Origin: Intestinibacillus massiliensis | GTDB taxonomy: Bacteria; Bacillota; Clostridia; Oscillospirales; Butyricicoccaceae | Direction: 5' to 3' | DNA: 64,000 nucleotides | NCBI GenBank assembly: GCA_029267335.1 | Contig: JAJUJC010000001.1 | Span: 620,001 to 684,000, forward strand | Shown: positions 39,166 through 64,000 of the stretch, one piece after another | How the letters are laid out: each line of letters opens with the position of its first letter | Position numbering within the stretch: the first letter of the stretch is position 1 | Notes under the pieces: model-generated | Database searches by the model: none | What the model was told of the DNA's origin: nothing | Seen by the model: the letters and a program-made list of their open reading frames with translations, nothing else | Made by a program: the position numbers and the translations under genes

Positions 39166-39205
39166 CAAAAAACCGTCGTGATGTTGCCATCACGACGGTT
39201 TTTCT
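39166..39205. terminator. Bidirectional terminator between pfkB and the sugar-sensor operon
   Basis: Perfect 16-base arms AAAAACCGTCGTGATG and complement with a TTGC loop. The right arm overlaps the last codons of the minus-strand sugar-binding gene. Confidence 0.87.
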
Positions 39206-40200
39206 TCGTTTTGGGTGAAGGGAATGATGAGCTGCTGATAGCTCGCCTTATTGAGATCGCTCTTGTGCACAATCACACTGTCCGTATAGTTGACTGCCGG
39301 AATCGTTTGCCGACCTAGCAGCTGCACCGCGCTCACCACGCTCAAATACCCCATGCTGAACGGATTCTGTACGACGCAGGACTGGATCGTACCGTCCTCG
39401 AGGTATTGGATCTGCCGCACCGAGCTGTCGCCTACAATGAGTGCGATCTTGCCCGCCTGTCCCATCTCCTGCAATGCCGCTGCCGCGCCGAGCGCGCTGC
39501 TTTCGTTGAGCGCCACCAGACATTTGATCTCCGGATGGTTCTGCACCATGTAGATCGTGCGCTCGCGCGCAAGCTCCTCGCGCCCCTCGCAGTACGCAAA
39601 CGCAGTCATACGCGTATCGCTGTCGGGCGTCGCACCAAGCAGCCCACGCAGCCGCTCGGTTGCGGTGCTCGCGCCTGCCATGTGTGAGATCACGCCAAAT
39701 GCTGCCTTGTCTCCGATGCGCTCTTGTAAAAGCTGCGCCAGCTTGCGCCCCATTTCCACGTTGTCCGTGCCGATGAACGCCTTGCGTCCGTCATAGTCCA
39801 CATCACTGTCGAGCGTCAGCAGTAAGATCCCTGCATCCGTTGCTTTTTTGCACACCGGCACAAGCCGTTCATAATCACATGCCGCCAAAATGATCGCGTC
39901 GGGCTTGCGGGCAATGGTTGCTTCCATGATGCCGATCTGCACATCGATGTCGCTCTCATAATACGGCGCTTCGATCGTGCACTGCACGCCGTACTCGCGC
40001 TGTGCGGTCTGGATACCCTGTGCGACCGCGCTCCAAAATGCAGGAGGGCGATTATACGCTTTCAGGATGACTGCAATGTCGTAGTTGCGCTGACGGGGCA
40101 TATCGTCTGCTTTCGAGCGCTCATTGAGCCAGAACACACTGAACACCAAGATGCATAGCATGACGCACGCCAACAGGACCCGATAATGCTGTTTGCTCAT
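39190..40200 (-). CDS. Membrane-anchored sugar-binding protein of a three-component sensor
   Basis: 336-residue periplasmic-binding-protein-type-1 fold (ribose-binding class). I place the start at the ATG at 40200 behind GGGAGG. Residues 7-25 are a hydrophobic segment (YRVLLACVMLCILVFSVFWL) with no clear lipobox or cleavage site, so it is probably an anchor. The body has IAVILKAYNRPPAFWSAVAQ, YYESDIDVQIGIMEATIARK and FIGTDNVEMGRKLAQLL. It overlaps the kinase gene by 4 bases, and is separate from the binding protein of the importer at 46.5 kb. The arrangement is like the XylFII-LytS xylose sensor, so it probably perceives the sugar for the kinase; that is inference. Confidence 0.85.
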   Translation of the reverse strand: MSKQHYRVLLACVMLCILVFSVFWLNERSKADDMPRQRNYDIAVILKAYNRPPAFWSAVAQGIQTAQREYGVQCTIEAPYYESDIDVQIGIMEATIARKPDAIILAACDYERLVPVCKKATDAGILLLTLDSDVDYDGRKAFIGTDNVEMGRKLAQLLQERIGDKAAFGVISHMAGASTATERLRGLLGATPDSDTRMTAFAYCEGREELARERTIYMVQNHPEIKCLVALNESSALGAAAALQEMGQAGKIALIVGDSSVRQIQYLEDGTIQSCVVQNPFSMGYLSVVSAVQLLGRQTIPAVNYTDSVIVHKSDLNKASYQQLIIPFTQNEEKPS

Positions 40201-42020
40201 GGTTTTTCCTCCCTGTGTATGGGCAGCGTGATCTCGACGCGTGTTCCCTCTCCCGGCGCGCTGAAATAGCACAGACCGTATGCTTCCCCATAGCAAAGCT
40301 GTATGCGGTGGTTGACATTGGTCACGCCGATGCCGCGTTCCCCGTTCTCGCGCGGGTCAAAGATGGTCTCAAGCTGCGCGGCGGTCATGCCGACGCCGTC
40401 GTCGCACACCGTCAGGACGAGACGCTCTCCCTGCGTCGCGCCGCTGATCGTGATCGTCCCTGCCGTCTCGCTGAGTTTGACCCCGTGATACAGCGCGTTT
40501 TCCACGATCGGCTGTAAAATCAGTTTGGGCACCGTGCATGTGAGCAGCTCTCGCGGCACGTCAATGGCATAACTGAGCTGTTCGCCGTACCGCATTTGCT
40601 GGATTGTCAGATAGCTGCGAATGTTCTCCAGTTCATTGGCGAGCGACACATAATTTTCGCCCTTGCTGATGCTCGTGCGGAACAGCTTTGCAAGCGCGGC
40701 GGTGACCTCTGTGACCTCCTCGGTCTTGCCGCTCGCGGACATCCAAATGATGGTGTCGAGGGTATTATACAGAAAATGCGGATTGATCTGCGCTTGCAGT
40801 GCGTTGATCTCGCTTTTGCGTTTGGCTTCCTCGTTCGCGAGCGCGCCGTCGCGCAGTTCGCGCATGCGGGAGATCATGGTGTTGAACGTTTTGCCGATCT
40901 GGCCGATCTCATTGTTCGTCGCGGTGCTCGCGCGCACCTCCCAATCCCCTTCCTCGACCTCGTGCATAGTCTCCTCCAGTTCTTGCAAAGGCCGCGTGAT
41001 CGTCGTGGAAATGAGCAGCGCTGCCAGGGTGGCGGCAAGCAAGCAGACCGCGGTGAGCGTGAAGTAAAAATTGACCACCGCTGTCCGATCGCTGATGAGT
41101 TCGCTCGCGTTGATGACGCCCACGGCGGTCCATCCGGTCAGCTCGGACTCGCTCTTCGTATAAATTTTATTTTCTTCCGTGCGCAGATAGCTGTCGCGCA
41201 TCAAAAGAATATCTTTGAGCGGGTCGACCTTGATGCCCGAATAGATGAGTTGCTGGTGTGGGTGATAAATGATATTCTGGTTGCGGTCAATGATGTAGAT
41301 ATATCCGTTTTTGCCAAGCTGCGCGGTCTCGCAAATGCTCTCGATCGCAAGGAAATTCAGGTCGATGACCATCACGCCCGTGACCTCTCCGGTCACACGG
41401 TCGATCACCGCGCGCGAAATCGAAATGACCCAAGTATACTCGTCCTTCACCAGATTCTGCACATGCGAGGGCGAAACCACGATTTCCTCCTTGAGTGAGA
41501 GCGGCTTGAGAAACCAGTCGGTCAAATTGTATTCGGAATACGGGTTGACCTGCTTGCGCGTATCGCTGAGCAGCACATCGCGATACTTGGAAATGACCGC
41601 GATATTTGTGATCTCACTGCGCGTGCCCGCCATCAAGTCAAGCTGCTGCGCTGCACGGGCACGCAGCGTTTCGATGCCGCCGCGCGCCTGCTCGGGCACA
41701 CCGAAGCCGCGATACCGGTTGTACTCCGCCATGAGATCCTGCACATCGGGATTGCTGCAAATGATAGAGGACATGCTCTTGACATTATCCATATAAGAAT
41801 CAATGCTCCCGTTGACCTCCGCGAGCAGGCTTTCGGTATAATGAATGGAGATTTTTTCGTAATCGCGGATCGCATAGTTATAAGACAGCACGGAAACCAG
41901 CAATACGACCACCGAAATGAGCAGCATGAAACACAGCACCATACTGGTACGGATGCTGTAAAAGCGATGATGGAGTTTTTTTCGTGCGCGCTCGCGCTGC
42001 ATCATTCGGCTTCCTCTCAC
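40197..42020 (-). CDS. YesM-type sensor histidine kinase
   Basis: 607 residues. Two membrane helices (about 25-48 and 310-335) flank a roughly 265-residue extracytoplasmic sensor of Cache type (RSEITNIAVISKYRDVLLSD, NGYIYIIDRNQNIIYHPHQQ). A HAMP domain follows (STTITRPLQELEETMHEVEE), then the His_kinase box QINPHFLYNTLDTIIWMSAS with His about 415, and the ATPase domain (QPIVENALYHGV, TVCDDGVGMTAAQLE). An internal ATG at 42005 (MMQRERARKK) is an equally possible start. It overlaps both the sugar-binding gene and the regulator by 4 bases. Confidence 0.92.
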   Translation of the reverse strand: MRGSRMMQRERARKKLHHRFYSIRTSMVLCFMLLISVVVLLVSVLSYNYAIRDYEKISIHYTESLLAEVNGSIDSYMDNVKSMSSIICSNPDVQDLMAEYNRYRGFGVPEQARGGIETLRARAAQQLDLMAGTRSEITNIAVISKYRDVLLSDTRKQVNPYSEYNLTDWFLKPLSLKEEIVVSPSHVQNLVKDEYTWVISISRAVIDRVTGEVTGVMVIDLNFLAIESICETAQLGKNGYIYIIDRNQNIIYHPHQQLIYSGIKVDPLKDILLMRDSYLRTEENKIYTKSESELTGWTAVGVINASELISDRTAVVNFYFTLTAVCLLAATLAALLISTTITRPLQELEETMHEVEEGDWEVRASTATNNEIGQIGKTFNTMISRMRELRDGALANEEAKRKSEINALQAQINPHFLYNTLDTIIWMSASGKTEEVTEVTAALAKLFRTSISKGENYVSLANELENIRSYLTIQQMRYGEQLSYAIDVPRELLTCTVPKLILQPIVENALYHGVKLSETAGTITISGATQGERLVLTVCDDGVGMTAAQLETIFDPRENGERGIGVTNVNHRIQLCYGEAYGLCYFSAPGEGTRVEITLPIHREEKP

Positions 42021-43624
42021 GATGATCTGATCTCCTCCGGCGCTGCCGTGCGGCGTGACTGTGCGCGGTACTGCGAAGGCGTCATACCGGTCATGCGCTT
42101 AAAGGTCACGGAGAAGTAGTGCGGGTCGGCAAACCCGACTGCCTGTGCGATCTCTGCCGCACGTTTCTCCGTCAGTGTCAGCATCTGCCTCGCCTTTGCC
42201 ATGCGTACCTGCGTGACATATTCCACAAAGGTGCAGCCCGTCACCGTCTTAAATAGCGTGGAAAAATAGCTGATGCTGATGGCAAACTCCTCACGGATGG
42301 TATTGAGCGACAGATCCTCGTCGCCGTAATGCTCGCGAATATAGGTTTCGACCTTGCGCACACGCGCGACGGAATCGTCCTCTGACAGACGAGCGACCGC
42401 GTCGAATGCCGTTTCCACAAGCTGCAACAGTAATCTACAAAGCTGCGGCAAATTGCTGACCGCATAAAAGCCGCTGTCCTCCCAAAACTGCTCGATGCGG
42501 TACACTTCCTCTTTGGACAGGCAATCTGTAAGGCAGTCGAGCACATGCAGCGCAAAATGTTGGCTGTGCTGTAGGCAGTCCTGATAAGAGGACTTCTGCT
42601 TTTCGAGCAGACTGCAAAGCTGCGCTACCGCAGCGCGCGCATCCTCTGCCCTGCCCGCTTTGACCGCTTGTGTCAGCGCACGCTCCGGTGCGCGAAAATC
42701 CGCCGGAGCGCTGGGCGGCTGCCCGATCTCGCACAGACGAATGCATGCAAGCGCGCCGCAGTAAAAACGATAATCGAGTGCACGCGTCGCCTGCCGGTAA
42801 GCGTCATGCAGTTGCTCGAGCGACTGCGCAGGCAGCGAGACCCCGCAGGTAGCCCCGTGATTGAGCGGGATGCACGCGGCGGCAAGGCGCTCGGCAAGGT
42901 GTTCCGCGCGCGTATATAAGGTCTGTGAATCCGACCCGCGCAGCAGCACATAGCATGCGGTCTGGATTGGAGTGCACAGCAGACAATTCTCTTCCTGTCC
43001 GACCAGCTCGGTCAGGATATTCGTCATGCCGTAGCGCAGCAGCTCATTTTCCCGTCCCTCCTCCGGCGTTGCGGGTCGGCGCAGATCGAGGTCGGCGGCA
43101 AGTACGAGGAAGGGGCCCTGCGCGGGCAGCTTGTGCACGCGCACATGGTCGTCGATCGTCGCGGCGCTCAGACTGGTCGTGAGCAGGCGTGTCCAAAAAC
43201 GCTCGCGGCTGTGCGCATCGAGTTCGTCGAGTTCCTTCACGCGCCGCTCGTCGAGTTCCTCGCGCAGCCGCGCGGCAAGCTGCCGCAGGCTTTTCGGCGT
43301 GATCGGTTTGAGGACATAATCAAATACCTTGAGCCGCAGTGCTTTATGCGCATACTGAAAATCGTCGTATCCGGTCAGCATGACGACCAGCGTCCCCGGC
43401 AGATGCTGCGCGACATATTTCGCGAGTTCCAGACCGTCGACAAACGGCATGCAGATGTCCGTAATGACGACATTCGGTGCAAAGCCTTCCTCGATACGCG
43501 CGATTGCGCTTCTCCCGTCTGCACACGCGACCGGCGTCTGAAACCCCAGTTCTTCCCATTGCAGTGTCTCGGTCATGGCGCGCAGCACCTCGGGCTGATC
43601 CTCGACCAGCATGAGTTTGTACAT
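42017..43624 (-). CDS. YesN-type response regulator with AraC DNA-binding domain
   Basis: 535 residues. Receiver: LMLVEDQPEV, phospho-acceptor Asp56 (VVITDICMPFVDG), MLTGYDDFQYA, LKPITPKSL. A long helical middle (about 125-420) links to an AraC-type double helix-turn-helix at the C-terminus (SISYFSTLFKTVTGCTFVEY, AQAVGFADPHYFSVTFKRMTGMTPSQYR). First gene of the minus-strand sensor operon, divergent from the importer, whose upstream region carries a 12-bp direct repeat that may be its binding site. Confidence 0.93.
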   Translation of the reverse strand: MYKLMLVEDQPEVLRAMTETLQWEELGFQTPVACADGRSAIARIEEGFAPNVVITDICMPFVDGLELAKYVAQHLPGTLVVMLTGYDDFQYAHKALRLKVFDYVLKPITPKSLRQLAARLREELDERRVKELDELDAHSRERFWTRLLTTSLSAATIDDHVRVHKLPAQGPFLVLAADLDLRRPATPEEGRENELLRYGMTNILTELVGQEENCLLCTPIQTACYVLLRGSDSQTLYTRAEHLAERLAAACIPLNHGATCGVSLPAQSLEQLHDAYRQATRALDYRFYCGALACIRLCEIGQPPSAPADFRAPERALTQAVKAGRAEDARAAVAQLCSLLEKQKSSYQDCLQHSQHFALHVLDCLTDCLSKEEVYRIEQFWEDSGFYAVSNLPQLCRLLLQLVETAFDAVARLSEDDSVARVRKVETYIREHYGDEDLSLNTIREEFAISISYFSTLFKTVTGCTFVEYVTQVRMAKARQMLTLTEKRAAEIAQAVGFADPHYFSVTFKRMTGMTPSQYRAQSRRTAAPEEIRSS

Positions 43625-43671
43625 GGTTTTTTCGCCTCCCTGTCGTCCCCGAAGCGGGTGTGTTTTTGTTC

Positions 43672-43700
43672 ATTATACCATGTATGCTTTGCGCTTTGAT
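43672..43700 (-). promoter_or_regulatory. Possible promoter of the sensor operon
   Basis: Minus-strand TATAAT (43672-43677) about 48 bases upstream of the regulator start, with only a poor -35 (ATCAAA at 43695-43700, 17-bp spacing). The weak -35 would suit an activator-dependent or weak promoter. Confidence 0.4.
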
Positions 43701-43764
43701 AGGGCAATTCGCTCAAAATGCCATCCTGGTTTTGTGGTTTTACACTAAAACAGCCTTGCTTGTT

Positions 43765-43807
43765 GTGGATTTTTGAAGATTGTGTCGATGAGAAAGTGGA
43801 TTTTTGA
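43765..43807 (+). promoter_or_regulatory. 12-bp direct repeat, candidate operator of the YesN-type regulator
   Basis: GTGGATTTTTGA occurs at 43765-43776 and again at 43796-43807, identical and exactly 31 bp apart (about three helical turns), between the divergent regulator and importer genes. Direct repeats in this geometry are typical of AraC-family sites. Confidence 0.55.
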
Positions 43808-43852
43808 CCTTTTCCAGGAAGATATTCTATCGAAAAAATTTTTCCGCCGCGG

Positions 43853-43858
43853 TATACT
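43853..43858 (+). promoter_or_regulatory. Probable -10 box of the sugar-importer operon
   Basis: TATACT in GCGGTATACTGAC, 79 bases before the start codon, with no recognisable -35 hexamer at 16-18 bp. The lack of -35 plus the repeats upstream suggests activation by the divergently encoded regulator. Confidence 0.5.
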
Positions 43859-43936
43859 GACAACAACAAAACAAAGCGTTGGCGGCGGGCATGCGGTTCG
43901 TCGACCTCTCTCCCATCAAAAGACAGAGGTGATTTT

Positions 43937-53614: not shown

Positions 53615-54811
53615 ATGGACATGAATCAAAATAACATCGAAGCGATCGTCCGGCAGGTGCTCGCAGGGATGTCCGGCGCGCCGTCAGCGCCGTCCTCCAA
53701 TGGTGAGCTGCCCAAGACCGCACGCGTCGCAATGCTGACCGAAAAGGAACATTACGAAATCAAGGAGTTTCCCCTCCCCTCCATCGGGGATGACGAGATT
53801 CTCGTAAAGGTCGAGGGCTGCGGCATCTGCGGTACAGACGCACACGAATTCAAGCGCGACCCCTTCGGTCTGATCCCGGTCGTTCTCGGGCACGAGGGCA
53901 CAGGCAAGATCGTCAAAATGGGCAAAAACGTCAAATTCGACAGCGCGGGCAAAGCGCTCGCTCTGGGCGATAAGGTCGTCACCTGCATGATCTTCAAGGA
54001 CAATCCGGAAATCACAATGTTCGACCTCAACAAGCAGAACGTCGGCGGCGCGGATGTCTACGGTCTGCTCCCGGATGACGACATTCATTTCAACGGCTGG
54101 TTCGCGGATTATTTGGTCATTCGCGGCGGTTCCACGGTCTTTAACGTCAGCGATCTCGATCTTTATTCGCGCATCCTCATCGAGCCGTGCGCGGTGCTCA
54201 TCCACGCGGTCGAACGCGCGAAAACCACCGGCATCCTGCGTTTTAACAGCCGCGTCGCAGTACAGGGCTGCGGCCCGATCGGTCTGATCTGCATCGCGAT
54301 CCTGCGCACGATGGGCATCATGCACATCACCGCGATCGACGGCAATCAGCAGCGGCTTGATTTTGCCCGCGAACTGGGTGCGACCGAAACCGTCAACTTC
54401 ACCGAGCACACCGGCATCGAGGCGCTGACAAACGCCGTCGAGCGCAGTTTCGGCGGACACGGCGCGGATTTCGCATTCCAGTGCACCGGCTCGCCCGCGG
54501 CACATGCGAATATCTACAAGTTCATCCGCAACGGCGGCGGTCTGTGCGAGCTGGGCTTCTTCATCAACGGCGGCAACGCAACAATTAACCCCCACTTCGA
54601 CCTGTGCTCCAAGGAGATCACGCTCGTCGGCTCGTGGGTCTACACCCTGCGTGATTACGCAACCACCTTTGATTTCCTGCGCAGCGCGAAGCGGATCGGT
54701 CTGCCGATGGAAAAGCTCATCACCGATACCTTCCGCCTGGAGGACATCAACGAGGCGCATCGCACCAATCTCGCGATGACCGGTCTCAAAATCGCAATCA
54801 TCAACCAGTGA
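53615..54811 (+). CDS. Zinc-dependent (MDR) alcohol dehydrogenase with targeting peptide
   Basis: Probably reduces propionaldehyde to 1-propanol, or lactaldehyde to 1,2-propanediol, and so recycles NAD in the compartment. 398 residues. Residues 1-25 (NNIEAIVRQVLAGMSGAP) are an extra amphipathic helix plus linker. The catalytic zinc site is GCGICGTDAHE (Cys72) with GHEGTG (His93, Glu94); the Rossmann loop is VQGCGPIGL. The four-cysteine structural-zinc lobe of many members is missing (the region after GDKVVTC has no Cys cluster). Other compartments use an iron-type PduQ instead, so a medium-chain enzyme here is noteworthy though known from related loci. Confidence 0.88.
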   Translation: MDMNQNNIEAIVRQVLAGMSGAPSAPSSNGELPKTARVAMLTEKEHYEIKEFPLPSIGDDEILVKVEGCGICGTDAHEFKRDPFGLIPVVLGHEGTGKIVKMGKNVKFDSAGKALALGDKVVTCMIFKDNPEITMFDLNKQNVGGADVYGLLPDDDIHFNGWFADYLVIRGGSTVFNVSDLDLYSRILIEPCAVLIHAVERAKTTGILRFNSRVAVQGCGPIGLICIAILRTMGIMHITAIDGNQQRLDFARELGATETVNFTEHTGIEALTNAVERSFGGHGADFAFQCTGSPAAHANIYKFIRNGGGLCELGFFINGGNATINPHFDLCSKEITLVGSWVYTLRDYATTFDFLRSAKRIGLPMEKLITDTFRLEDINEAHRTNLAMTGLKIAIINQ

Positions 54812-54843: not shown

Positions 54844-55158
54844 ATGCGCGAAGCGGTCGGTATCCTGGAGGTCTACGGTCTGGTCTGTGCGTTTTTAGCG
54901 GCGGACGCGGGCTGTAAAGCAGCGAACGTGCGGCTTGAGAACTTTGACAAGAACAAGCCCGCAAACGCAGATTCGCTCCCCATTCCCCTTCTCGTCACGA
55001 TCAAGTTCCGCGGCGGCGTCGCGGACGTCGAAATGGCGATGGCAGCGGCGGAAGAGGTCGCGGCGCGTGTTTCCGGCATTGTACAACAGCACATCATTCC
55101 GAACCCCACCGCAGATACCGAAAAAATGCTGCATCTGAGCGCCTTCGACAAAAGCTGA
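54844..55158 (+). CDS. BMC-H shell protein, variant with an extended loop
   Basis: 104-residue single-BMC-domain shell protein: MREAVGILEVYGLVCAFLAADAG, a strand/loop segment NFDKNKPANADSLPIPL longer than usual, then VTIKFRGGVADVEMAMAAAE and HIIPNPT. The insertion lies where the pore-loop region of canonical hexamers is, so the pore is probably altered. First of the shell genes, 32 bases after the alcohol dehydrogenase. Confidence 0.9.
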   Translation: MREAVGILEVYGLVCAFLAADAGCKAANVRLENFDKNKPANADSLPIPLLVTIKFRGGVADVEMAMAAAEEVAARVSGIVQQHIIPNPTADTEKMLHLSAFDKS

Positions 55159-55196: not shown

Positions 55197-55472
55197 ATGG
55201 CACAGGAAGCTCTGGGTATGATCGAGACGCGCGGTCTGACCGCCGCAATCGAAGCCGCCGACGCAATGACGAAGGCAGCCGAGGTCACGCTGATCGGCAC
55301 GGAAAAGATCGGCAGCGGCCTCGTCACCGTCATGGTGCGCGGCGATGTCGGCGCAGTCAAGGCAGCCGTTGAGGCAGGCGAAGCCGCCGCAAGCAAGCTG
55401 GGCGAGATGGTCGCAACACATGTCATCCCCCGCCCGCACGCCGACGCGGAAAAGATCCTGCCTACGATTTAA
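55197..55472 (+). CDS. BMC-H shell protein, PduA/EutM type (copy 1)
   Basis: 91-residue canonical hexamer-forming shell protein ([20 protein letters not shown], pore segment [34 protein letters not shown]). GGAGGAACGCAAT precedes the ATG at 55197. It is about 80% identical to the BMC-H encoded at 55901, with residues 30-56 identical, pointing to duplication. The pore loop with its small residues (IGSG) is of the type that lets small polar metabolites through. Confidence 0.95.
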
Positions 55473-55493: not shown

Positions 55494-55778
55494 ATGGGAA
55501 TGGCTTACGGCTTTGTGGAAATTACGGGGGTCGTCGCCGCGACCGACGCGCTCGATCTCATGTGCAAGACCGCTGATGTCGAGCTTGCCACTTGGGAACG
55601 CAAACTAGGCGGCCGGCTCGTGACACTCGTCATTCAGGGCGATGTCTCCGCCGTGACGCAGGCCGTCGAGGCCGTCAAGCAGCAGGCGATCAAAAAGCCC
55701 GCCGCCACCGGCATCCTTGCAAGCCCCCACGAGGAGATCGTGCGTCTGGTGCGCAAGAGCGCGAGCCGCTTTATGTAG
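55494..55778 (+). CDS. BMC-H shell protein, divergent type
   Basis: 94-residue BMC domain: [80 protein letters not shown]. It lacks the pore motif of the two PduA-like copies (ERKLGGR instead of EKIGSG). Lies between those copies. Confidence 0.9.
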
Positions 55779-55900
55779 GAAAGGCAGGAACACTCGTCAT
55801 GGCACAGAAACCGACACCACCGGTGGAGCTAGCGCCCGCCGAAACGATTATTGCACCGCCGAGCGCGGCGCCCACCACAACTGTCAAGGAGGAAAAAAAG

Positions 55901-56179
55901 ATGACGCAGGAAGCACTGGGTATGGTAGAAACAAGAGGTCTCGTCGCAGCGATCGAGGCGGCGGACGCAATGTGCAAGGCAGCGAATGTTACGCTGATCG
56001 GCACGGAGAAGATCGGCAGCGGTCTTGTCACGGTCATGGTTCGCGGCGACGTCGGCGCGGTCAAGGCATCCGTTGAGGCAGGCTCCGCAAGCGCGGGCCG
56101 TCTGGGCGAGCTGATCGCGATCCATGTCATCCCGCGCCCGCATTCCGATGTCGAGCGCATTTTGCCGAAGCTCAAGTAA
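55901..56179 (+). CDS. BMC-H shell protein, PduA/EutM type (copy 2), with optional N-terminal extension
   Basis: 92 residues from the ATG at 55901, which has a strong AAGGAGG 8 bases upstream and gives [20 protein letters not shown], aligned with copy 1. The same frame is open upstream to an ATG at 55799, itself preceded by AGGA at 9 bases spacing, adding 34 residues that are Pro/Ala/Thr-rich ([19 protein letters not shown]). This upstream stretch fills an otherwise unusual 122-base gap. Two isoforms are therefore possible. The pore region is identical to copy 1. A terminator follows the stop codon. Confidence 0.93.
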
Positions 56180-56192
56180 CAAAGCACGACAG

Positions 56193-56226: not shown

Positions 56227-56302
56227 CTTCCAAACGCGCATTGCGATGCAGTGATGCGCATGAAAAACGCCGCTTCACCGCGGCAGGAAAGCAGGTGCCG
56301 TC

Positions 56303-56962
56303 ATGGACACAAAACAAATCGAGCGCATTACGCAGCTTGTGGTCGCAGCTTTGTGCGAGGCTCCCGAGGATAGAGAGGATCGCACGAAACGCCCCGAGGG
56401 CATTCCTGTGGGCGTTTCCGCCCGCCATGTACATCTGACACAGGAGCAGGTCGAGCTGCTCTTCGGCAAGGGACACCATCTTACCCCGAAAAAAGAGCTC
56501 ATGGGCGGACAGTTCGCCTGTGAGGAGACCGTCACGCTCATCAGCGCCAAAATGAAGGTGCTCGAAAAGGTGCGTGTGCTCGGCCCGACCCGCAAATTTG
56601 CGCAGATCGAGCTTGCCGCGACCGACGCAATGAAGCTCGGCGTCAAGGCGCCCCTGCGCGACAGCGGCGATGTGGCAGGCAGCGGCCCGCTCACGTTGCT
56701 CGGCCCGGCGGGTACGCTCACGCTGCGCGAGGGCACGATCATCGCGGGACGCCACATCCACATGTCCCCCGCCGACGCAGCACGCTTCGGTGTGACCGAC
56801 GGACAGGTCGTGTCCGTCCGCTTCCCCGGCGAGCGCGCCGGACTGTTCGGACAGGTCAAGATCCGCGTGGACGACAGCTTCACGCTTGAAATGCACATTG
56901 ATACGGACGAGGCAAACGCCGCCTGTATCAAAACCGGAACACGCGTCGAACTGGTCAAATAG
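56303..56962 (+). CDS. pduL: Phosphate propanoyltransferase PduL with targeting peptide
   Basis: Converts propionyl-CoA and phosphate to propionyl-phosphate, releasing CoA inside the shell. 219 residues. Residues 2-20 (DTKQIERITQLVVAALCEA) are a targeting helix. Each PTAC domain carries its metal histidines: GVSARHVHLT (His42, His44), GHHLTPKKEL (His58/59), and GRHIHMS (His151, His153). 77 bases of sequence without visible promoter separate it from the internal terminator. No propionate kinase gene was found in the window. Confidence 0.94.
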   Translation: MDTKQIERITQLVVAALCEAPEDREDRTKRPEGIPVGVSARHVHLTQEQVELLFGKGHHLTPKKELMGGQFACEETVTLISAKMKVLEKVRVLGPTRKFAQIELAATDAMKLGVKAPLRDSGDVAGSGPLTLLGPAGTLTLREGTIIAGRHIHMSPADAARFGVTDGQVVSVRFPGERAGLFGQVKIRVDDSFTLEMHIDTDEANAACIKTGTRVELVK

Positions 56963-56995
56963 ACCGCTTCGCACACACAGAAACAGGAGGCTGCG

Positions 56996-57265
56996 ATGAT
57001 CGTAGGCAAGGTAGTTGGGCATGTGGTCTCCACACGCAAAAATGAACATCTGATCGGCTGCAAGTTCATGATCGTCGAGCCGACTGCGGATATGGGCTGT
57101 ACATTCGCTCGCGTCATTGCGGTAGACAATGTCGGCGCGGGCGTGGGCGAGCATGTGCTCGTCGCACTGGGCAGTGCGGCGCGCATCGGCGTCGATCGCA
57201 GCGACGCACCGATCGACGCGGCGATCGTCGGCATCGTCGACGAGGGCTGCAACCGCTTTGGCTGA
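56996..57265 (+). CDS. BMC-P pentameric vertex protein (EutN/CcmL type)
   Basis: 89 residues, EutN/CcmL fold: MIVGKVVGHVVSTRKNEHLI, IVEPTADMG, AVDNVGAGVGEHVLVALGSA and the tail DAAIVGIVDEGCNRFG. These pentamers close the 12 corners of the shell, so only about 60 copies per compartment are needed, in contrast to thousands of hexamer subunits. Confidence 0.94.
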   Translation: MIVGKVVGHVVSTRKNEHLIGCKFMIVEPTADMGCTFARVIAVDNVGAGVGEHVLVALGSAARIGVDRSDAPIDAAIVGIVDEGCNRFG

Positions 57266-57284
57266 CTTCGGGGAGTGACACTCT

Positions 57285-58610
57285 ATGGATCTTACAACAT
57301 TACGCGAGCTGCTGCGCGTCAGCGGCGTCGTCGGCGCAGGCGGCGCGGGCTTCCCAAGCTACGGCAAGCTGAGCGAGCAGGCGGATACCGTGCTGCTCAA
57401 CTGCGCCGAGTGCGAGCCACTTCTCACGCTGCACCGTCAGCTTCTCGAGCGGCACGCGCCCGAAATTCTGGCCGCACTCGAAACCGTGACCGCGGCAATG
57501 GGCGCGCAGCGTGCCATCGTGTGCGTCAAGGCAGAATATCACGGTACAGTCGACGCGGTGCGCACCTGTCTGGATGCGCACCCCCACCTGTCGCTGCACA
57601 CACTGGACAGCGTCTACCCCACCGGTGACGAGGTCATCTTGATTTATGAAGCTACCGGCCGTGTCCTGCGTCCGGGCGGTCTGCCGCTCGAAGCGGGCGT
57701 GGTCGTTTTTAATGTCGAGACCATGTTTAACATCCACCGTGCCATGCAGGGCCATCCCGTCACGGACAAACTGGTCACGGTGACGGGTGCGGTGCACGCA
57801 CCGGTCACGCTGCGCGCGCCGCTCGGCACGCCGCTCGGGGAGCTTGTTGCGCGTGCGGGCGGCGCGACCGTGCCGGATGCCGCCTATCTCGTCGGCGGGC
57901 CGATGATGGGGGCGCTCGGCAGTCCCGCACAGCCGGTCACGAAAACGACCAACGCCGTGCTCGTGCTGCCGCCCGACCATACACTGGTGCTGGGTCGCTC
58001 CGCCGCGCTGCCCCTACAGCTAAAGCGCGCTGCTTCTGCGTGCTGTCAGTGCGAAAGCTGCACCGATCTGTGCACGCGCCACGCACTCGGACACCCCATT
58101 GAGCCGCATCTGTTCATGCGCGCGGCAGCAAACGGAGACTTCCGTGATACGCAGGTTTTCCTAAACACGCTGTATTGCAGCGGCTGCGGGGTATGCGAGC
58201 AATATGCCTGTCCGCAGAGCCTGTCACCGCGCACGCTGATCGGCGCGTACAAAGCGGGGCTGCGCAAGGCGGGCGTCAAACTCTCGCCGGACTGCGTCGC
58301 CGCGCCGGTCTCGCCGCTGCGCGCATGGCGCACCGTACCCGAGGCACGGCTTGCCGCGCGGCTCGGACTCACAGCATACGAGCACGCCGCGCCGCTCGTG
58401 GAAACGCCGCTCGCTACGGCGCGCGTACATCTGCCGCTGTCGCAGCACATCGGCGCGCCCGCCGTCCCCGTCGTGCAGACGGGCGACCATGTCGAGGTCG
58501 GCACACTGCTCGCCCGCCCCGCAGACGGACTGAGCACCGCACTGCACGCGTCCATTGCAGGCACTATGCTCGACTGCAACAACAAATACATTGTGCTTGC
58601 GCAGCAATAA
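57285..58610 (+). CDS. PduS-type electron-transfer flavoprotein (RnfC-like)
   Basis: 441 residues; the family passes electrons from NADH or flavin through iron-sulfur centres, and in PDU compartments is linked to redox balance. N-terminal GVVGAGGAGFPSYGK is the nucleotide/FMN site; SLBB domain in the middle; two 4Fe-4S sets at Cys253-256-259-263 (CQCESCTDLC) and Cys298-301-304-309 (CSGCGVCEQYACP). In the cobalamin-dependent pathway PduS helps reactivate B12; no B12 enzyme is here, so its role must be different, perhaps electron exchange across BMC-T. Confidence 0.92.
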   Translation: MDLTTLRELLRVSGVVGAGGAGFPSYGKLSEQADTVLLNCAECEPLLTLHRQLLERHAPEILAALETVTAAMGAQRAIVCVKAEYHGTVDAVRTCLDAHPHLSLHTLDSVYPTGDEVILIYEATGRVLRPGGLPLEAGVVVFNVETMFNIHRAMQGHPVTDKLVTVTGAVHAPVTLRAPLGTPLGELVARAGGATVPDAAYLVGGPMMGALGSPAQPVTKTTNAVLVLPPDHTLVLGRSAALPLQLKRAASACCQCESCTDLCTRHALGHPIEPHLFMRAAANGDFRDTQVFLNTLYCSGCGVCEQYACPQSLSPRTLIGAYKAGLRKAGVKLSPDCVAAPVSPLRAWRTVPEARLAARLGLTAYEHAAPLVETPLATARVHLPLSQHIGAPAVPVVQTGDHVEVGTLLARPADGLSTALHASIAGTMLDCNNKYIVLAQQ

Positions 58611-58637
58611 CGCGCCGAGGGAAGGATGATATTGACA

Positions 58638-59186
58638 ATGCGCAACGCATTAGGTATGATAGAGTTCAAGACAGTGGCATCCGGTGTGACAATGCTCGAT
58701 CACATGCTCAAGACCGCCGCGGTCGAGGTCATTGAAGCGCAGACCGTGTGCCCCGGTAAATACATCGCGCTGCTGCGCGGCGATCTGAGCGCGGTCAACG
58801 CCGCGATCGACGCAGTTGTGCGCGCAGGCAGCGATCGTCTGATCGGCACGTTCGTGCTCGGCAATCCCCATGAAGATATTTTTCCCGCGCTGTATGGCTC
58901 GACCAAGGTCGGTCGGGTGCAGGCGCTCGGCATCCTCGAAACCTACGACGCGGTGTCGATCATCGAGGCTGCCGATCTTGCCGCAAAAACCGCGACCGTA
59001 CAGCTCATCGAGCTGCGCGTCGCCAAGGGCATGTGCGGCAAATCCTATCTCACGCTGACAGGCGATGTCGCAGCGGTAGAGGCCGCGATCGATCACGCAC
59101 GGCGCTTTGTCAGCGAAAAGGGCATGTACCTCGATTCGAGTGTCATCGCCCAGCCCGATGCGCAGGTGTGCGCGCGCATCCTGTAA
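58638..59186 (+). CDS. BMC-T tandem-domain shell protein, PduT type
   Basis: Two BMC domains in one chain (trimeric pseudohexamer), about 182 residues from the ATG at 58638; an in-frame ATG at 58626 is possible but closer to the GAAGG site. Domain 1: MRNALGMIEFKTVASGVTML; domain 2: VQALGILETYDAVSIIEAAD. A Cys sits in each pore-region: QTVCPGKYIALLRG in domain 1 and AKGMCGKSYLTLTG in domain 2. PduT of Citrobacter holds a 4Fe-4S cluster at the pore by the domain-2 Cys, and PduS is adjacent here, so an electron relay is plausible; the second Cys appears shifted by two residues relative to the remembered PduT sequence. Confidence 0.92.
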   Translation: MRNALGMIEFKTVASGVTMLDHMLKTAAVEVIEAQTVCPGKYIALLRGDLSAVNAAIDAVVRAGSDRLIGTFVLGNPHEDIFPALYGSTKVGRVQALGILETYDAVSIIEAADLAAKTATVQLIELRVAKGMCGKSYLTLTGDVAAVEAAIDHARRFVSEKGMYLDSSVIAQPDAQVCARIL

Positions 59187-59211
59187 ATTCACACGAAAGA
59201 AGGGATCAACC

Positions 59212-59973
59212 TTGCTGGCACAAGAACGAAGAAACCTGATTCTGGAGCGCCTGATCGAGGAAAAAAGCGTCGTCGTTTCCGAGCTGAGTCAACGCTTCAG
59301 CGTTTCCGAGGAAACCATTCGGCGCGATCTTGACAAACTGGAGCGGGACGGTCTGGCTGTGAAAAGCTACGGCGGCGCAGTCATCAATGAGAATGTCAGC
59401 ATCGACATGCCCTTCAGCATCCGTAAAAAGCGCAACATCGCAGGCAAGCAGCGCATTGCCGAGCTCGCCGCGCGTCTCGTGGAAAACGGCGACCATCTCA
59501 TGCTCGACGCGAGCAGCACGGCGGTGTTCATCGCGCGCGCACTCAAGGACAAGCAAAACCTGACGATCATCACGAACTCGATCGAAATTCTGGTCGAACT
59601 GTCCGACATGCCGGGCTGGAAGGTGCTCGTGCCGGGCGGCTGCCTGATGGAGGGCTATCTCGCCCTGATCGGCCCCGCCGTGACCGAGAGCCTGCTCCAG
59701 TACCATGTGGAAAAGACCTTTATTTCCTGTAAGGGCGTCAGTCTGGAGGAAGGCACGACCGATAGCAATGCGGATTTTGCACACGCTAAGCGCGCGATGC
59801 TGCGCTGTGCCAAGGAGCGCTATCTCGCGGTCGACAGCAGCAAGCTCGGACGGCTCGCCTTTGCAAACATCTGCGCGCTCGAGGATCTCGACGGCGTGAT
59901 CACCGACGAGCAGCCGCCCGCAGAATGGCTCGATTATTTCACGCAGCACGGAATCCGCTGCTATTATCCCTGA
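59212..59973 (+). CDS. DeoR-family transcriptional repressor
   Basis: 253 residues from the TTG at 59212 (LAQERRNLILERLIEEKSV), which has GAAGGG 7 bases upstream; the open frame runs upstream into the BMC-T gene. N-terminal helix-turn-helix VVSELSQRFSVSEETIRRDL, then a sugar-phosphate-sensing DeoRC domain (MLDASSTAVFIARAL, ITNSIEILVELSD, DSSKLGRLAFA). Likely effector is a phosphorylated intermediate such as fuculose 1-phosphate. Last gene of the shell operon, so it would repress its own operon. Confidence 0.92.
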   Translation: MLAQERRNLILERLIEEKSVVVSELSQRFSVSEETIRRDLDKLERDGLAVKSYGGAVINENVSIDMPFSIRKKRNIAGKQRIAELAARLVENGDHLMLDASSTAVFIARALKDKQNLTIITNSIEILVELSDMPGWKVLVPGGCLMEGYLALIGPAVTESLLQYHVEKTFISCKGVSLEEGTTDSNADFAHAKRAMLRCAKERYLAVDSSKLGRLAFANICALEDLDGVITDEQPPAEWLDYFTQHGIRCYYP

Positions 59974-60025
59974 TGATTTGCATCCCTTGCGGAGCGGCAC
60001 CGATGGTGTGGCTCCGTTTTTGCAT

Positions 60026-60072
60026 AACAAACACCTCCGGATGCGTGACTGCATCCGGAGGTGTTTGTTTGT
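60026..60072 (+). terminator. Terminator of the microcompartment operon
   Basis: Perfect 19-base arms (AACAAACACCTCCGGATGC and complement) with a GTGACT loop, 52 bases after the DeoR-type stop codon. The T-run is weak (TTTG), but the symmetrical stem is strong and can also serve the convergent fucI transcript. Confidence 0.72.
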
Positions 60073-60089
60073 CGGCGTATGCCATTTCG

Positions 60090-60128
60090 AGGGTGCGCGG
60101 CGGTTCTGGAAAAACCACTGCGCACCCT
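60090..60128. repeat. Inverted repeat downstream of fucI
   Basis: AGGGTGCGC (60090-60098) and GCGCACCCT (60120-60128), 21 bases apart, with additional GGTT...AACC pairing inside. No U-run follows; may be a weak terminator or processing site for the fucI transcript. The rest of the 206-base gap holds nothing else I recognise. Confidence 0.4.
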
Positions 60129-60179
60129 TGAGCTTTGGGAGGTGTGTTTATAAAAAGAAGCGCAGAGAGAAAAGTAAAA

Positions 60180-61970
60180 TTAACGATAAAGCGGACCGTA
60201 CTGCTTGCATGCAGCGTAGTCAGCCGCCTGCTTGTCTTCCGTGCCGAAAGCAGCCCATGCATGCGGGCGATAGACCTGTTCCTCCGGTACATTGTGCATC
60301 GTGATCGGGATGCGCAGCATCGAAGCGGTCGTAATGAGATCCGCACCGACGTGACCGTATACCGTGACACCGTGGTTTGCGCCCCAGTTCGCCATGACGC
60401 TGTAGACGTCGGTGAACGCGCCGTGACCGGTCAGACGCGGGCAGAACCAAGTGGTCGGCCAGGTGCGGTCGGTACGCTTGTCGATCGTGCTGTGGATGTC
60501 GTCCGGCAGGTTTGCCGTCCAACCCTCTGCAAGCTGCAGCACGGGGCCGATGCCGTCGATGATGTTGAAGCGCAGCATCGTGACAGGCATCTCCGCCTGG
60601 CAGCGGAAGTGGCTCGAGAAGCCGCCGCCGCGGAAGTATTCGTAGTTTGCACGGCACCAGTCGGTGGCGTCGACGCACGCCTGACGGTCGGCATCGGTCA
60701 TCTCCCAGAACGGCTTCATGCAGCCCTCGCCCTGCTCGTTCTTGCTCGCGCCGCTGCCGTCAAGTGCGGTAGCACCCGAGTTGATAAGGTGGATAAAGCC
60801 GTTTTCCGCCACGCCCGTGGGCTTGTAACCGGTGACGCGCTCGCACGCCTCGGGACTCCAGTAGGTGCGTACATCGTGGAAGCAGGGTGCGCTGCCCGTG
60901 ACGAGCGTGCCAAGCAGCATTGCGATGCCGTTGCAGGTATCGTTCTCGGTCGCGAATGCGGTCGGCGCCTTTGCACCGTTCCAGTCAAAGGTGGACGCGA
61001 GGATGGCTTCGGTAAAGTCCGCGTTCGGCAGCCAGTCGGTCCACTGACGCTGTCCCTGGAAGCCGCCTGCGATCGCATTACGCCCGAGTGCTTCCTCGTG
61101 CCAGCCCAGCTCTGCAAGGCGCGGATTTCCGTACAGGATGTCGCGCATGACAAGAGTCATTTTGACGATGAACTCCCAATCCTGCTCAGGCGGGATGTGC
61201 TTGGATTTGGTGATGATCTCGGGCAACTCCTTGCCTGCGTTGCAGTCAAAGCCCTCGCGGCAGTTGGTCTTGACCCACGCCAGAGCCTTTTCATACTCTG
61301 CGGGATCGTAAATGCCGAGCGTTGTGCGGCGCAGGATTTCGACCTCGTCGACCCACTCCGCGCGCAGTCCAAGATACTGCTGCAGTACCTGTGCATCGCA
61401 GTAGCTGCCCGCAATGCCCATGGAGACTGCGCCGATGTTGACAAATGCCTTATTGCGCATCCAGCCGATCGCGACCGCGCCGCGTGCAAAGCGCACGATC
61501 TTTTCGCGCACGTCGTCCGGAATCGAGGTGTCGTTTGCTTCCTGTACGTCATGGCCGTAGATCGCAAACGCGGGCAGACCGCGCTGTGCGTGCGCTGCGA
61601 GCACCGCCGCCAGATACACCGCGCCGGGACGCTCGGTGCCGTTGAAGCCCCAGACCGCCTTGATGGTCTTGGGGTCCATGTCGAAGGTCTCCGTGCCGTA
61701 GCACCAACAGGGCGTGACGGACAGCGTCGCGACGACATTCTCTGTGGAGAACTGCTCTGCGACCAGTGCCGCTTCCGCGCCGCCGCCGATCGTCGTGCAG
61801 CCGATGACGCACTGCACGGGCGTACCGTCCGGATATTTGAGGGTTTCGCAAATCAGGGCTGCGGCACTGTGCGCCATCGCCATGGTCTGGTCTTCAAGAT
61901 TTTCACGCACGCCGCCCCAGCGACCATCGATGACGGGTCGGATACCGATTTTCGGGTACATCATAGTCAT
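60180..61970 (-). CDS. fucI: L-fucose isomerase
   Basis: Converts L-fucose to L-fuculose (and D-arabinose to D-ribulose). 596 residues, normal for the family. Landmarks: KIGIRPVIDGRWGGVREN, GCTTIGGGAEAALVAEQFS, NNGTER-like WGFNGTERPGAVYLAA, DILYGNPRLAELGWHEEALG, ATENDTCNGIAMLLG (metal Glu region), and WFCPRLTGHGAFTDVYSVMA. Last gene of the minus-strand fucU-kinase-fucI operon, 33 bases after the kinase. There is no rhamnose isomerase in the window. Confidence 0.95.
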   Translation of the reverse strand: MTMMYPKIGIRPVIDGRWGGVRENLEDQTMAMAHSAAALICETLKYPDGTPVQCVIGCTTIGGGAEAALVAEQFSTENVVATLSVTPCWCYGTETFDMDPKTIKAVWGFNGTERPGAVYLAAVLAAHAQRGLPAFAIYGHDVQEANDTSIPDDVREKIVRFARGAVAIGWMRNKAFVNIGAVSMGIAGSYCDAQVLQQYLGLRAEWVDEVEILRRTTLGIYDPAEYEKALAWVKTNCREGFDCNAGKELPEIITKSKHIPPEQDWEFIVKMTLVMRDILYGNPRLAELGWHEEALGRNAIAGGFQGQRQWTDWLPNADFTEAILASTFDWNGAKAPTAFATENDTCNGIAMLLGTLVTGSAPCFHDVRTYWSPEACERVTGYKPTGVAENGFIHLINSGATALDGSGASKNEQGEGCMKPFWEMTDADRQACVDATDWCRANYEYFRGGGFSSHFRCQAEMPVTMLRFNIIDGIGPVLQLAEGWTANLPDDIHSTIDKRTDRTWPTTWFCPRLTGHGAFTDVYSVMANWGANHGVTVYGHVGADLITTASMLRIPITMHNVPEEQVYRPHAWAAFGTEDKQAADYAACKQYGPLYR

Positions 61971-62003
61971 TCTCTCCTTTGTATTGTTGATTTTATCGAA
62001 AAT

Positions 62004-63431
62004 TCACAGCAATGTCTGATAAAATGCATACGCGCGATCCCATTCTTCGATGTGCGCGGGCTGATAGGTCTTGACCGCTTCGGTGCGTTCGATGAGCGCA
62101 CGTCCCGCGCCAATATCCGGCAGCGCGCCGAGTGCGACAAGCTGTATCACGATGTTGCCGAGCGCGGTTGCTTCGACCGGACCCGCGACCACCGGAATGC
62201 CGCAGCAATCCGCAGTCATATGGCACAGCAGCGAAGCCTGTGCCCCGCCGCCAACGATGTGCAGCGCGGAAAATTGCTTTCCGGTCATTTCGCGCAGCTG
62301 CTCAAGCGCGTAGCGGTACTTGAGCGCGAGGCTTTCGTAAATGCAGCGGCTGATCTCCCCGACCGTCTGTGGCTCATACTGTCCCGTGCGGCGGCAATAT
62401 GCCTGTACGCGCGCAGGCATGTCGCCGGTCGGGGTAAATTCCGCAGCGTCGGGGTCAATGAAGCAGCGTAGCGCGGGGGCTTCTTCTGCCTGTGCGGCGA
62501 TCTCCCCGAAGGAGTACATCAGACCGTGACGCTGCCACACGCGGCGGCTTTCCTGAATCAGCCACAGACCGATGATGTTTTTTAAGTAGTTGACCTTGCC
62601 GTTTGCGCCAAGCTCATTGGACAGATTGCGCGCGCAGCTGCGCTCGGTCAGGATGGGTGCGTCAAGCTCCGTACCGAGCAAGCTCCAGGTGCCGCAGGAC
62701 AGGAACGCAACGTCGTCCGACTGGGTCGGTACGGCAGCGACGGCACACTGGGTGTCATGTCCCGCGACGGCAATGATCTTTGCGCCGTTTGCAAGCGTTC
62801 CGGTCACAGTGCCGCTCGGCACGGTGGGACGCAGGATGTGCGTGGGAAGTTGCAAACGATCGAGCAGCGCAGTGTGCCACTCACCGGTGTGCGGATCGAG
62901 CATCTGGCTGGTCGAGGCAATGCTGCGTTCGCAGACTGCTTCGCCGCCAAGCATGTAGCTGAACAAATCGGGCATGAACAGCAGCGTGTGCGCACGCTCG
63001 AGCAGATCACGCTGCTTTTCGCGCATCGCCATGAGCTGAAACAGCGTGTTGATTGCCATGACCTGATTGCCGGTCTGTGCATAAAGCTCCTGCACCGCAA
63101 GCGTTTCGCGCACACGGGCAAGCATGCCCTCCGTGCGTGTATCGCGATAGTGCACCGGGCTTTGCAGCAGCATGCCCTGACGGTCGAGCAGACCGAAATC
63201 CACGCCCCATGTGTCAAAACCGATGCTGTCGAACTGCCCTGCTTTGGAAATTCCGGTTTTGACCTCGGCAATCAGTGTTTCAAAATCCCAGAACAGCGTG
63301 CCGTCACGCTCAACCGGGATATTTTCAAAGCGGTAGACCTCCTTGTAGGAAAGGTCGTCGCCTGTGTAGGTCGCAAGGATCGCGCGTCCGCTCGACGCGC
63401 CGAAATCAAACGCTAAGACACGCGTATTCAT
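62004..63431 (-). CDS. FGGY carbohydrate kinase, rhamnulokinase-like, probable L-fuculokinase
   Basis: 475 residues. The N-terminus FDFGASSGRAILATY and GFDTWGVDFGLLDRQG match the RhaB/FucK group; ATP-site motifs include GHDTQCAVAAVP and LSCGTWSLLGTE, and the C-terminal HIVGGGAQASLLCHMTAD. By sequence pattern it looks more like rhamnulokinase than E. coli FucK, yet it sits between fucU and fucI. It may phosphorylate both L-fuculose and L-rhamnulose. It overlaps fucU by 4 bases. Confidence 0.88.
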   Translation of the reverse strand: MNTRVLAFDFGASSGRAILATYTGDDLSYKEVYRFENIPVERDGTLFWDFETLIAEVKTGISKAGQFDSIGFDTWGVDFGLLDRQGMLLQSPVHYRDTRTEGMLARVRETLAVQELYAQTGNQVMAINTLFQLMAMREKQRDLLERAHTLLFMPDLFSYMLGGEAVCERSIASTSQMLDPHTGEWHTALLDRLQLPTHILRPTVPSGTVTGTLANGAKIIAVAGHDTQCAVAAVPTQSDDVAFLSCGTWSLLGTELDAPILTERSCARNLSNELGANGKVNYLKNIIGLWLIQESRRVWQRHGLMYSFGEIAAQAEEAPALRCFIDPDAAEFTPTGDMPARVQAYCRRTGQYEPQTVGEISRCIYESLALKYRYALEQLREMTGKQFSALHIVGGGAQASLLCHMTADCCGIPVVAGPVEATALGNIVIQLVALGALPDIGAGRALIERTEAVKTYQPAHIEEWDRAYAFYQTLL

Positions 63432-63862
63432 TGCACCACGCCCTTCTTGAGCAGGATGTTCGCATAGATCGCGGTTTCGCCCGTCGCAATGATCGCATAC
63501 GCCTTTTTCGCACGCTCATAGAACGCGAAACGCTCGATCATCTCAATGTCACAGTGTTCGGGTTCGTGCTTGTGCAGCAGCGCGCTGTACTCGTGCCAGA
63601 TCGCCGGCACGACCGGATCGCCGGGCACGACCTCCATCAGCCCGACCGGCTTTGCGCTGTACTGATCGAGCGGAAGCAGCGTCAGGATCGCGTCGAGCAG
63701 CTCGGGAACACCGTGCCCGTCCGCCCGCAGCACAATGGCATCGCGGCCGACACTTTCGGCGGGAAAGTTACCATCACCGATGATGAGTTCGTCGCCATGC
63801 CCCATTTCCATGAGGACTTTGAGAAGCGCGGGGGAAAGGATGGACGGAATCTGTTTCAGCAT
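63428..63862 (-). CDS. fucU: L-fucose mutarotase (FucU/RbsD family)
   Basis: Interconverts alpha and beta anomers of fucose so that the isomerase is supplied. 144 residues from the ATG at 63862 (MLKQIPSILSPALLKVLMEM) behind AAAGGAG; the open frame upstream crosses the promoter region. Family motifs: MGHGDELIIGDGNFPAES, LRADGHGVPELLDAIL, and YERAKKAYAIIATGE. First gene of the fucU-kinase-fucI operon. Confidence 0.93.
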   Translation of the reverse strand: MLKQIPSILSPALLKVLMEMGHGDELIIGDGNFPAESVGRDAIVLRADGHGVPELLDAILTLLPLDQYSAKPVGLMEVVPGDPVVPAIWHEYSALLHKHEPEHCDIEMIERFAFYERAKKAYAIIATGETAIYANILLKKGVVQ

Positions 63863-63908
63863 AGCGCACACTCCTTTATCACACAAATCTTTGCTTGTTC
63901 TTTCTTTG

Positions 63909-63947
63909 ATTATACCGTTGCACAGTGCATTGCGCTTGTGGTATAAT
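63909..63947. promoter_or_regulatory. Overlapping divergent promoters at the right end
   Basis: Plus strand: TTGCAC (63918-63923), 18-bp spacer, TATAAT (63942-63947), leading to the partial gene at 63985. Minus strand: TATAAT (63909-63914), with no good -35, leading to fucU. The two share the same 39 bases, so one bound regulator could switch both. Confidence 0.55.
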
Positions 63948-63984
63948 CGTAAAAAGTGGTACAATATTCACTTTTGGAGGGCAC

Positions 63985-64000
63985 ATGAACTACCTTGCTT
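63985..64000 (+). CDS. Start of a divergent gene, cut by the right window edge
   Basis: ATG at 63985 with TTGGAGGG 5 bases upstream and a promoter in front; only MNYLA can be read. Position, divergent from the fucU operon, would suit a regulator of the fucose genes, but five residues are not enough to identify it. Confidence 0.5.

Follow-up and report, generated by a model that had tools for sequence, protein, structure and literature searches.

The window analysed here is a stretch of 64,000 nucleotides of the genome of Intestinibacillus massiliensis (C1:620001-684000 of a 2.2-Mb genome with a tool-estimated completeness of 100%). It carries an island (39190-64000) that is very probably a complete regulon for L-fucose, based on a GRM5 bacterial microcompartment (BMC). 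Gene content and order, family membership and the searched-for absences were read directly from the DNA. All gene classes named in the original prediction, made from the sequence alone, were present: a sensor, an importer, fucU, kinase and fucI, an aldolase, a glycyl-radical enzyme (GRE) with its activase, dehydrogenases, PduL and six shell proteins. PduS and a DeoR regulator were absent from its gene list, and an AraC regulator was also added at the window edge. That prediction correctly described a glycyl-radical compartment turning a deoxyhexose into propionate and propanol, known from Clostridium phytofermentans and not new as a concept. The island is a GRM5 locus of an already known type; its sole unexpected detail is a cysteine cluster in the tail of the aldolase.

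Gene content and class of the compartment

The core of the island is read from the plus strand. Its GRE (47872-50397) is a B12-independent 1,2-propanediol dehydratase of 841 amino acids. The top match in the Protein Data Bank (PDB) was the diol dehydratase 5i2a, which we take to come from Roseburia inulinivorans, with 836 residues aligned without gaps at 1342 bits; glycerol dehydratase 1r8w scored 1000 bits and choline lyases about 500-610 bits. The catalytic motifs, a GCVEPQ segment and the glycyl loop RVAGYSA, were kept. An internal insertion of about 53 residues (49645-49803, plus strand; the class criterion is about 60 amino acids) interrupts the match to 1r8w between residues 653 and 707, and is contained in 5i2a, which aligned end to end. 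We predict that it serves as an internal encapsulation peptide. The enzyme has no N-terminal extension: the open reading frame (ORF) of 903 amino acids only adds a spurious stretch before the start near 47872. We considered the long N-terminus of this ORF as an encapsulation peptide and rejected it, since homology begins only near residue 66.

The GRE is followed by its activase (50422-51213; 263 amino acids, seven cysteines), in which no ferredoxin-insert domain was matched, and by a class II fuculose-phosphate aldolase (FPA; 51391-52200; PF00596, 170.5 bits) with a putative C-terminal encapsulation tail. Next come a CoA-acylating propionaldehyde dehydrogenase (AldDH; 52213-53601), whose N-terminal extension reads as amphipathic and whose top PDB match was 4c3s (770 bits; presumably from C. 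phytofermentans), and a zinc-dependent dehydrogenase of the MDR family (53615-54811; PF00107/PF08240), a predicted lactaldehyde reductase (LR) or propanol dehydrogenase. The shell set comprises four BMC-H proteins (54844-55158; 55197-55472, EutM-like; 55494-55778; 55901-56179, EutM-like), one BMC-P vertex protein (56996-57265) and one PduT-like BMC-T protein (58626-59186). PF00936 gave six matches in five island proteins, BMC-P being the sixth shell protein, and none of the four BMC-H proteins carried the GrpU pore motif GxCPQN/H. In the first BMC-H, the usual pore motif is replaced by the segment DKNKPANAD with a longer loop, which the 25 orthologues compared (one cut short) retain. Between the shell genes lie PduL, a phosphate propanoyltransferase (56303-56962), and a PduS-like NADH/FMN/2x[4Fe-4S] oxidoreductase (57285-58610). 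Neither PduS nor PduT reached its NCBIfam cut-off; the four PduS domains passed those of Pfam. A DeoR-family regulator (59212-59973, approximate start) closes the row.

These features agree with the GRM5 traits given in PMC6325248, namely an aldolase, a zinc dehydrogenase, PduS and PduT in 57 of 57 loci, and no GrpU. According to the same source, the activases of GRM5 are the only ones in the GRM classes without the ferredoxin-like insert, and the internal GRE insertion has a role in encapsulation. DeoR, PduS and the zinc dehydrogenase have also been noted in GRM5 (PMC4207490). The closest described systems are the GRM5 fucosomes of C. phytofermentans (Cphy_1174-1187) and R. inulinivorans, which, according to PMC3557285, share the GRE, activase, aldolase, AldDH, zinc dehydrogenase, BMC-H set, PduL, BMC-P, PduS, PduT and DeoR. 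In C. phytofermentans, however, import, sensor and fucU/kinase/fucI lie in separate loci, whereas in the window they stand beside the BMC operon. The PDU microcompartment resembles the island in its chemistry after 1,2-propanediol and in PduL, PduS and PduT, but depends on a B12-dependent diol dehydratase. The large subunit of that enzyme (PF02286) had no match even genome-wide, extending its reported absence from the island to the whole genome.

Sensing, import and the proposed pathway

Three adjacent minus-strand genes open the island and form a predicted three-component sensor: a substrate-binding protein (SBP) of the Peripla_BP_4 family (39190-40200) with an N-terminal hydrophobic anchor, in which a lipobox was not clear by eye; a dCache_1-HAMP-His_kinase histidine kinase (40197-42020), which we take to be of the LytS/YesM type; and a response regulator with receiver, GGDEF_2 and AraC helix-turn-helix domains (42017-43624), presumably of the YesN type. 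An RbsA-like sugar ABC transporter ATPase (43937-45445), a permease (45460-46422) and a transport SBP (46496-47623; 25% identity to the sensor SBP) follow on the plus strand. By gene arrangement only, the sensor can be likened to CuaD-CuaSR of Ruminiclostridium cellulolyticum, where a second SBP likewise accompanies a two-component system and an ABC importer, but for another sugar, cellobiose (PMC10384115). C. phytofermentans uses CUT2 ABC importers (PMC3557285). At the far end of the island, minus-strand genes encode L-fucose isomerase FucI (60180-61970), an FGGY kinase (62004-63431) that is rhamnulokinase-like by profile and a predicted L-fuculokinase, and L-fucose mutarotase FucU (63428-63964). 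The AraC/cupin regulator on the plus strand has only its first bases in the window (63985-64000) and runs on to about 64833 (L011:986-1834; start judged by eye).

From these genes we propose the following route, in which fluxes, sensor ligand, regulator targets, encapsulation and assembly are all predicted. The anchored binding protein would report external L-fucose to the histidine kinase and, through it, to the AraC-type response regulator, which would turn on import; the DeoR and AraC regulators would work intracellularly. FucU, FucI and the rhamnulokinase-family kinase would produce L-fuculose-1-phosphate in the cytosol. Within the shell, cleavage of this compound by the aldolase would give dihydroxyacetone phosphate and L-lactaldehyde, the zinc dehydrogenase would reduce lactaldehyde to 1,2-propanediol, the GRE would dehydrate 1,2-propanediol to propionaldehyde, and the acylating dehydrogenase would convert propionaldehyde to propionyl-CoA. 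PduL would then form propionyl-phosphate, from which acetate kinase would yield propionate. The genome contains one acetate kinase, about 20 kb to the left of the window (C1:598696), and only one class II aldolase. NAD would be recycled within the shell by pairing lactaldehyde reduction with propionaldehyde oxidation, and surplus reductant may leave as propanol. In C. phytofermentans the corresponding system is induced on fucose and rhamnose and forms propanol and propionate (PMC3557285, PMC6325248), with BMC genes upregulated 15-87 fold on both sugars and the regulator about twofold (PMC3557285).

Conservation among relatives

Genome contigs were scanned with the GRE, and the best 80 of 578 relatives were taken; all locus counts out of 80 rest on these. 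Many of the 80 were Lachnospiraceae by title, and the best GRE identity among the matches listed was 75%. The aldolase was found at 50% identity or more in 65 of the 80 loci and PduT in 44. All 13 genes of the row GRE, activase, FPA, AldDH, LR, four BMC-H, PduL, BMC-P, PduS and PduT were present in 38 loci and stood in the order of the window in 34, an arrangement that is beyond chance; in four more (L067, L076, L078, L094) the GRE and activase were placed after DeoR. DeoR came after PduT in 23 of the 44 loci with PduT.

Relatives of the sensor kinase and regulator lay within the stretch in three of the 80 loci (L015, L063, L073). Because the flanks reach only about 10 kb from the GRE, a count of fucI linkage to the BMC across all 80 loci was not feasible; of the 32 named genomes searched for fucI, eight were examined for this linkage, using the stretch beside fucI or the BMC. 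Eubacterium plexicaudatum ASF492 (L059/L169) had the BMC, DeoR, regulator-kinase-SBP sensor, ABC importer, kinase, fucI and fucU in one stretch, although the order and orientation of its sensor, transporter and fuc genes differ and its sensor SBP is 32% identical. Completeness and linkage to a three-gene sensor, which had been thought to set the present copy apart, are thus shared by at least this named strain. Near the BMC, four other stretches (L167, L168, L170, L173) contained fucI together with an AraC-type segment that matched weakly, and L172 had no fucI in its stretch. The sensor-ABC-kinase-fucI set of L171 had no BMC gene in its stretch, and L174 showed fucI only; neither of these two stretches shared a sampled 60-mer with the BMC locus. 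Hence, the sensor set also accompanies fucose genes apart from a BMC.

In its own lineage, the GRE was found in the present genome and in one of 59 relatives (54% identity; E up to 1e-150). This rarity suggests acquisition by transfer.

Substrate and alternative explanations

FucI and FucU scored above their NCBIfam cut-offs. Genome searches with PF01120, PF14498 and PF17389, which we take to represent GH29, GH95 and GH78 fucosidases and rhamnosidases, gave no match, and neither did RhaA (PF06134). Since RhaA and these glycosidases were not matched, the likely substrate is free L-fucose rather than rhamnose. L-fucose or L-rhamnose had both been considered originally, together with a proposed genome search for rhaA and ackA-type kinases; the search returned one acetate kinase and no RhaA, and the latter result, with the FucI and FucU scores, narrows the choice to L-fucose. 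The sensor is tied to fucose because sensor, ABC and fuc genes occur together in L169, with a BMC, and in L171.

Several points weigh against a complete L-fucose regulon. The RhaA search covered PF06134, other rhamnose isomerase families not being searched for. The FGGY kinase scored 460.9 bits as a rhamnulokinase (cut-off 527.95) and 127.1 as a fuculokinase; we named it by context because its profile is nearer to rhamnulokinases. The top profile of the sensor SBP was the rhamnose RhaS family, at 103.2 against a cut-off of 342.25. L-Fucose isomerases act on D-arabinose too, according to a reference title in PMC3557285, and D-arabinose use may be an additional role of the island. Finally, 64 of the 80 loci extend at least 8.9 kb to the right of the GRE, and only 34 of these 64 show the 13-gene order. 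Among the 30 without the full row, the island genes ended with the activase in L045, L046 and L084, for example. Some loci end at shell genes (L017, L031, L032), and AldDH was missing between FPA and LR in L081, L082, L083, L087, L089, L090 and L092, not all of which belong to the 64. L082, L083, L090 and L092 carry an AldDH of 56-58% identity further along.

It is improbable that L-rhamnose is used by the island beside L-fucose, entering via genes elsewhere in the genome. The GRM5 cores of C. phytofermentans serve both sugars (PMC3557285), and the rhamnulokinase-like kinase would fit such a role. The present genome differs from that of C. phytofermentans, however, in that the RhaA search found no rhamnose isomerase despite its stated completeness; PF17389 found no GH78 member, and fucI and fucU lie within the island itself.

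Still less probable is a PVM-like route, as put forward for aldolase compartments in PMC6620236, in which lactaldehyde would be split to propanediol and lactate and the dehydratase would be a coupled extra instead of a core step. The PVM class is defined by an aldolase pathway without propanediol dehydratase, whereas here, as in 34 of the 80 loci, GRE and activase sit in one row with the aldolase and shell genes. Moreover, C. phytofermentans makes both propanol and propionate (PMC6325248). We consider it least credible that the island is dormant or decayed: it stands almost alone in its family, a similar GRE occurring in only one of the 59 other relatives searched, but every gene is open, the catalytic motifs of the GRE are kept, and the gene order is common to other loci.

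Cysteine patch of the aldolase tail

Between its catalytic domain and C-terminal helix the aldolase reads HPADLCQNKGGDNCHNCGSCG. This stretch contains the conserved Cys/His patch C224-x7-C232-H-x-C235-x2-C238 (52060-52104, plus strand), and AlphaFold predicts a helix at residues 253-266 (52147-52188, plus strand) that is likely to be an encapsulation peptide. The patch pattern, written after the tails had been inspected, matches 62 of the 66 aldolases from the window and 65 loci. In the alignment, the four tail cysteines were kept in 65, 65, 64 and 60 of the 66 and the histidine in 64, whereas the linker around residues 240-252 is variable and gapped. The catalytic domain contains four cysteines that were equally conserved, so that conservation alone is no proof of a special role for the patch.

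A wider set of 133 distinct aldolases was divided by length, tail-bearing meaning 248 amino acids or more, and by identity, at 66%. Among the 95 tail-bearing sequences of at least 66% identity, 88 had the full motif, six had three or more cysteines and one had none; L067, cut by the alignment start, and L165, a frame with stops, fell outside the 95 by length. In tail-bearing sequences below 66% identity, three or more cysteines occurred in 14 of 20, often as CxxC-x5-7-C, with the third cysteine of L135 in the helix. None of the 16 shorter sequences below 66% had three or more; 15 of these are truly tail-less, and L145 is cut by a contig end with its first two cysteines visible.

We rejected a restriction of the patch to GRE compartments. 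A B12 diol dehydratase was present in seven of 21 genomes checked, adjacent to the aldolase by position in all seven, and four of these seven aldolases have CxxC-x7-C. L127 and L128 show other spacings with at least three cysteines, and L135 has CxxC only. Judged from these sequences, the patch in some form marks putatively encapsulated aldolases with either dehydratase type.

None of 36 matches to solved class II aldolases extends past query residue 215, so that none shows the tail. AlphaFold modelling from a 74-sequence alignment (mean pLDDT 89.6) gave residues 227-249 scores below 50 and the helix blocks scores of 84-89. A stable zinc knuckle is not supported by this predicted disorder, although the model, a metal-free monomer, does not exclude one. 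Full-text searches found no mention of the patch; most subscription papers and the 2015 GRM survey lay outside these searches, and the patch may be in print. Tentatively, and at rather long odds, the pattern C-x7/9-CHxC-x2/3-C might hold an Fe-S cluster or act as a thiol relay at the inner face of the shell, working with PduS and PduT; the tail would then do more than target the enzyme.

PduS, PduT and an exceptional locus

PduT has pore-loop cysteines in both domains, C42 (58749-58751) in VCPGKY and C137 (59034-59036) at the matching place in GMCGKSY. The second-domain cysteine was present in 33 of 35 PduT of at least 50% identity and replaced by serine in L163 and L164; six further rows were BMC-H matches and were left out of the count. 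Six more distant true PduT, one of them from the ethanolamine (EUT) locus of this genome, had glycine or alanine at the second place. Glycine also occupies this position in the solved chains 3pac, 3n79 and 3nwg, and a cysteine lies three residues downstream in 3pac, 3n79 and the five distant loci other than the EUT one. A GRM5 PduT trimer would thus have six pore-loop cysteines instead of three.

In PduS, the eight cysteines of the Fe-S domain were kept in 46 of 46 sequences. Of 51 sequences, the EUT PduS included, 50 retained the GxGGxGFP motif. The exception is L048 (JARIEI010000037.1), which combines a PduS without the glycine-rich nucleotide-binding motif with the one aldolase of these loci without any tail cysteine. 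Its PduS was the most divergent of 53 and its aldolase catalytic domain the most divergent of 66. Its GRE, AldDH, LR, first, third and fourth BMC-H, PduL and BMC-P were near or above the middle, and its activase lay slightly lower, at rank 23 of 78; its PduT is cut at the contig end. This double loss is a single event noticed post hoc, expected about once in 50 if losses fell randomly, and could be a chance coincidence. Among GRM5 loci, PduS identity to the window was lowest in the four with incomplete patches (L048, L067, L069, L076). A general tracking of incomplete patches with diverged PduS was rejected, however, because only L048 stood out on regression: residuals, computed against mean pairwise identity and by regression on GRE, aldolase and LR divergence, ranked 1, 5, 25 and 10 of 53, respectively.

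Second compartment and neighbouring genes

About 300 kb away (~C1:323-340k) lies a locus for EutA, EutB and EutC, BMC proteins and an iron alcohol dehydrogenase. It also encodes a PdtaS-type kinase with an ANTAR regulator, and a protein containing a cobalamin adenosyltransferase domain. This locus adjoins CbiM, CbiD and CbiJ; over C1:311000-341000 (L009, L010) the ethanolamine compartment thus stands beside a cobalamin synthesis and cobalt transport cluster. Its relatives of PduT, PduS, BMC-P and PduL were 39-48% identical to those of the island. The description 'B12-free' therefore holds for the island's compartment and its enzyme, but not for the organism, and the reported lack of cobalamin genes and propionate kinase is true of the island but not of the genome, which has both cobalamin genes and an acetate kinase elsewhere. 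Since cobalamin genes are present, their lack does not explain the B12-independent dehydratase. Genomes with both EUT and GRM loci are already known (PMC8217296).

To the left of the island lie ffh, trmD and a PfkB-type kinase gene, with two ORFs of 139 and 214 amino acids between ffh and trmD (36134-37194, minus strand) that had no Pfam or NCBIfam match. To the right of the AraC gene, rlmH-like and murA-like genes were read from their first residues alone. No tRNA gene marking an island edge was found in the window. An ORF at 59206-60054 on the minus strand was considered as a novel protein and dismissed; it lies opposite DeoR, was matched by neither Pfam nor NCBIfam and looks like the shadow of that gene.

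Implications

The island offers a self-contained module from fucose to propionate in a lineage where such modules are rare, and brings B12-dependent and B12-independent compartment chemistries together in one small genome. That neither GH29 nor GH95 was matched suggests that the organism scavenges fucose released by others. PMC6325248 describes electron delivery to the glycyl-radical activase within such shells as an open question. If the proposed function of the aldolase tail is true, GRM5, whose activase alone is without a ferredoxin-like insert, would have another internal electron carrier, and the patch would provide a concrete handle on electron supply to the activase.

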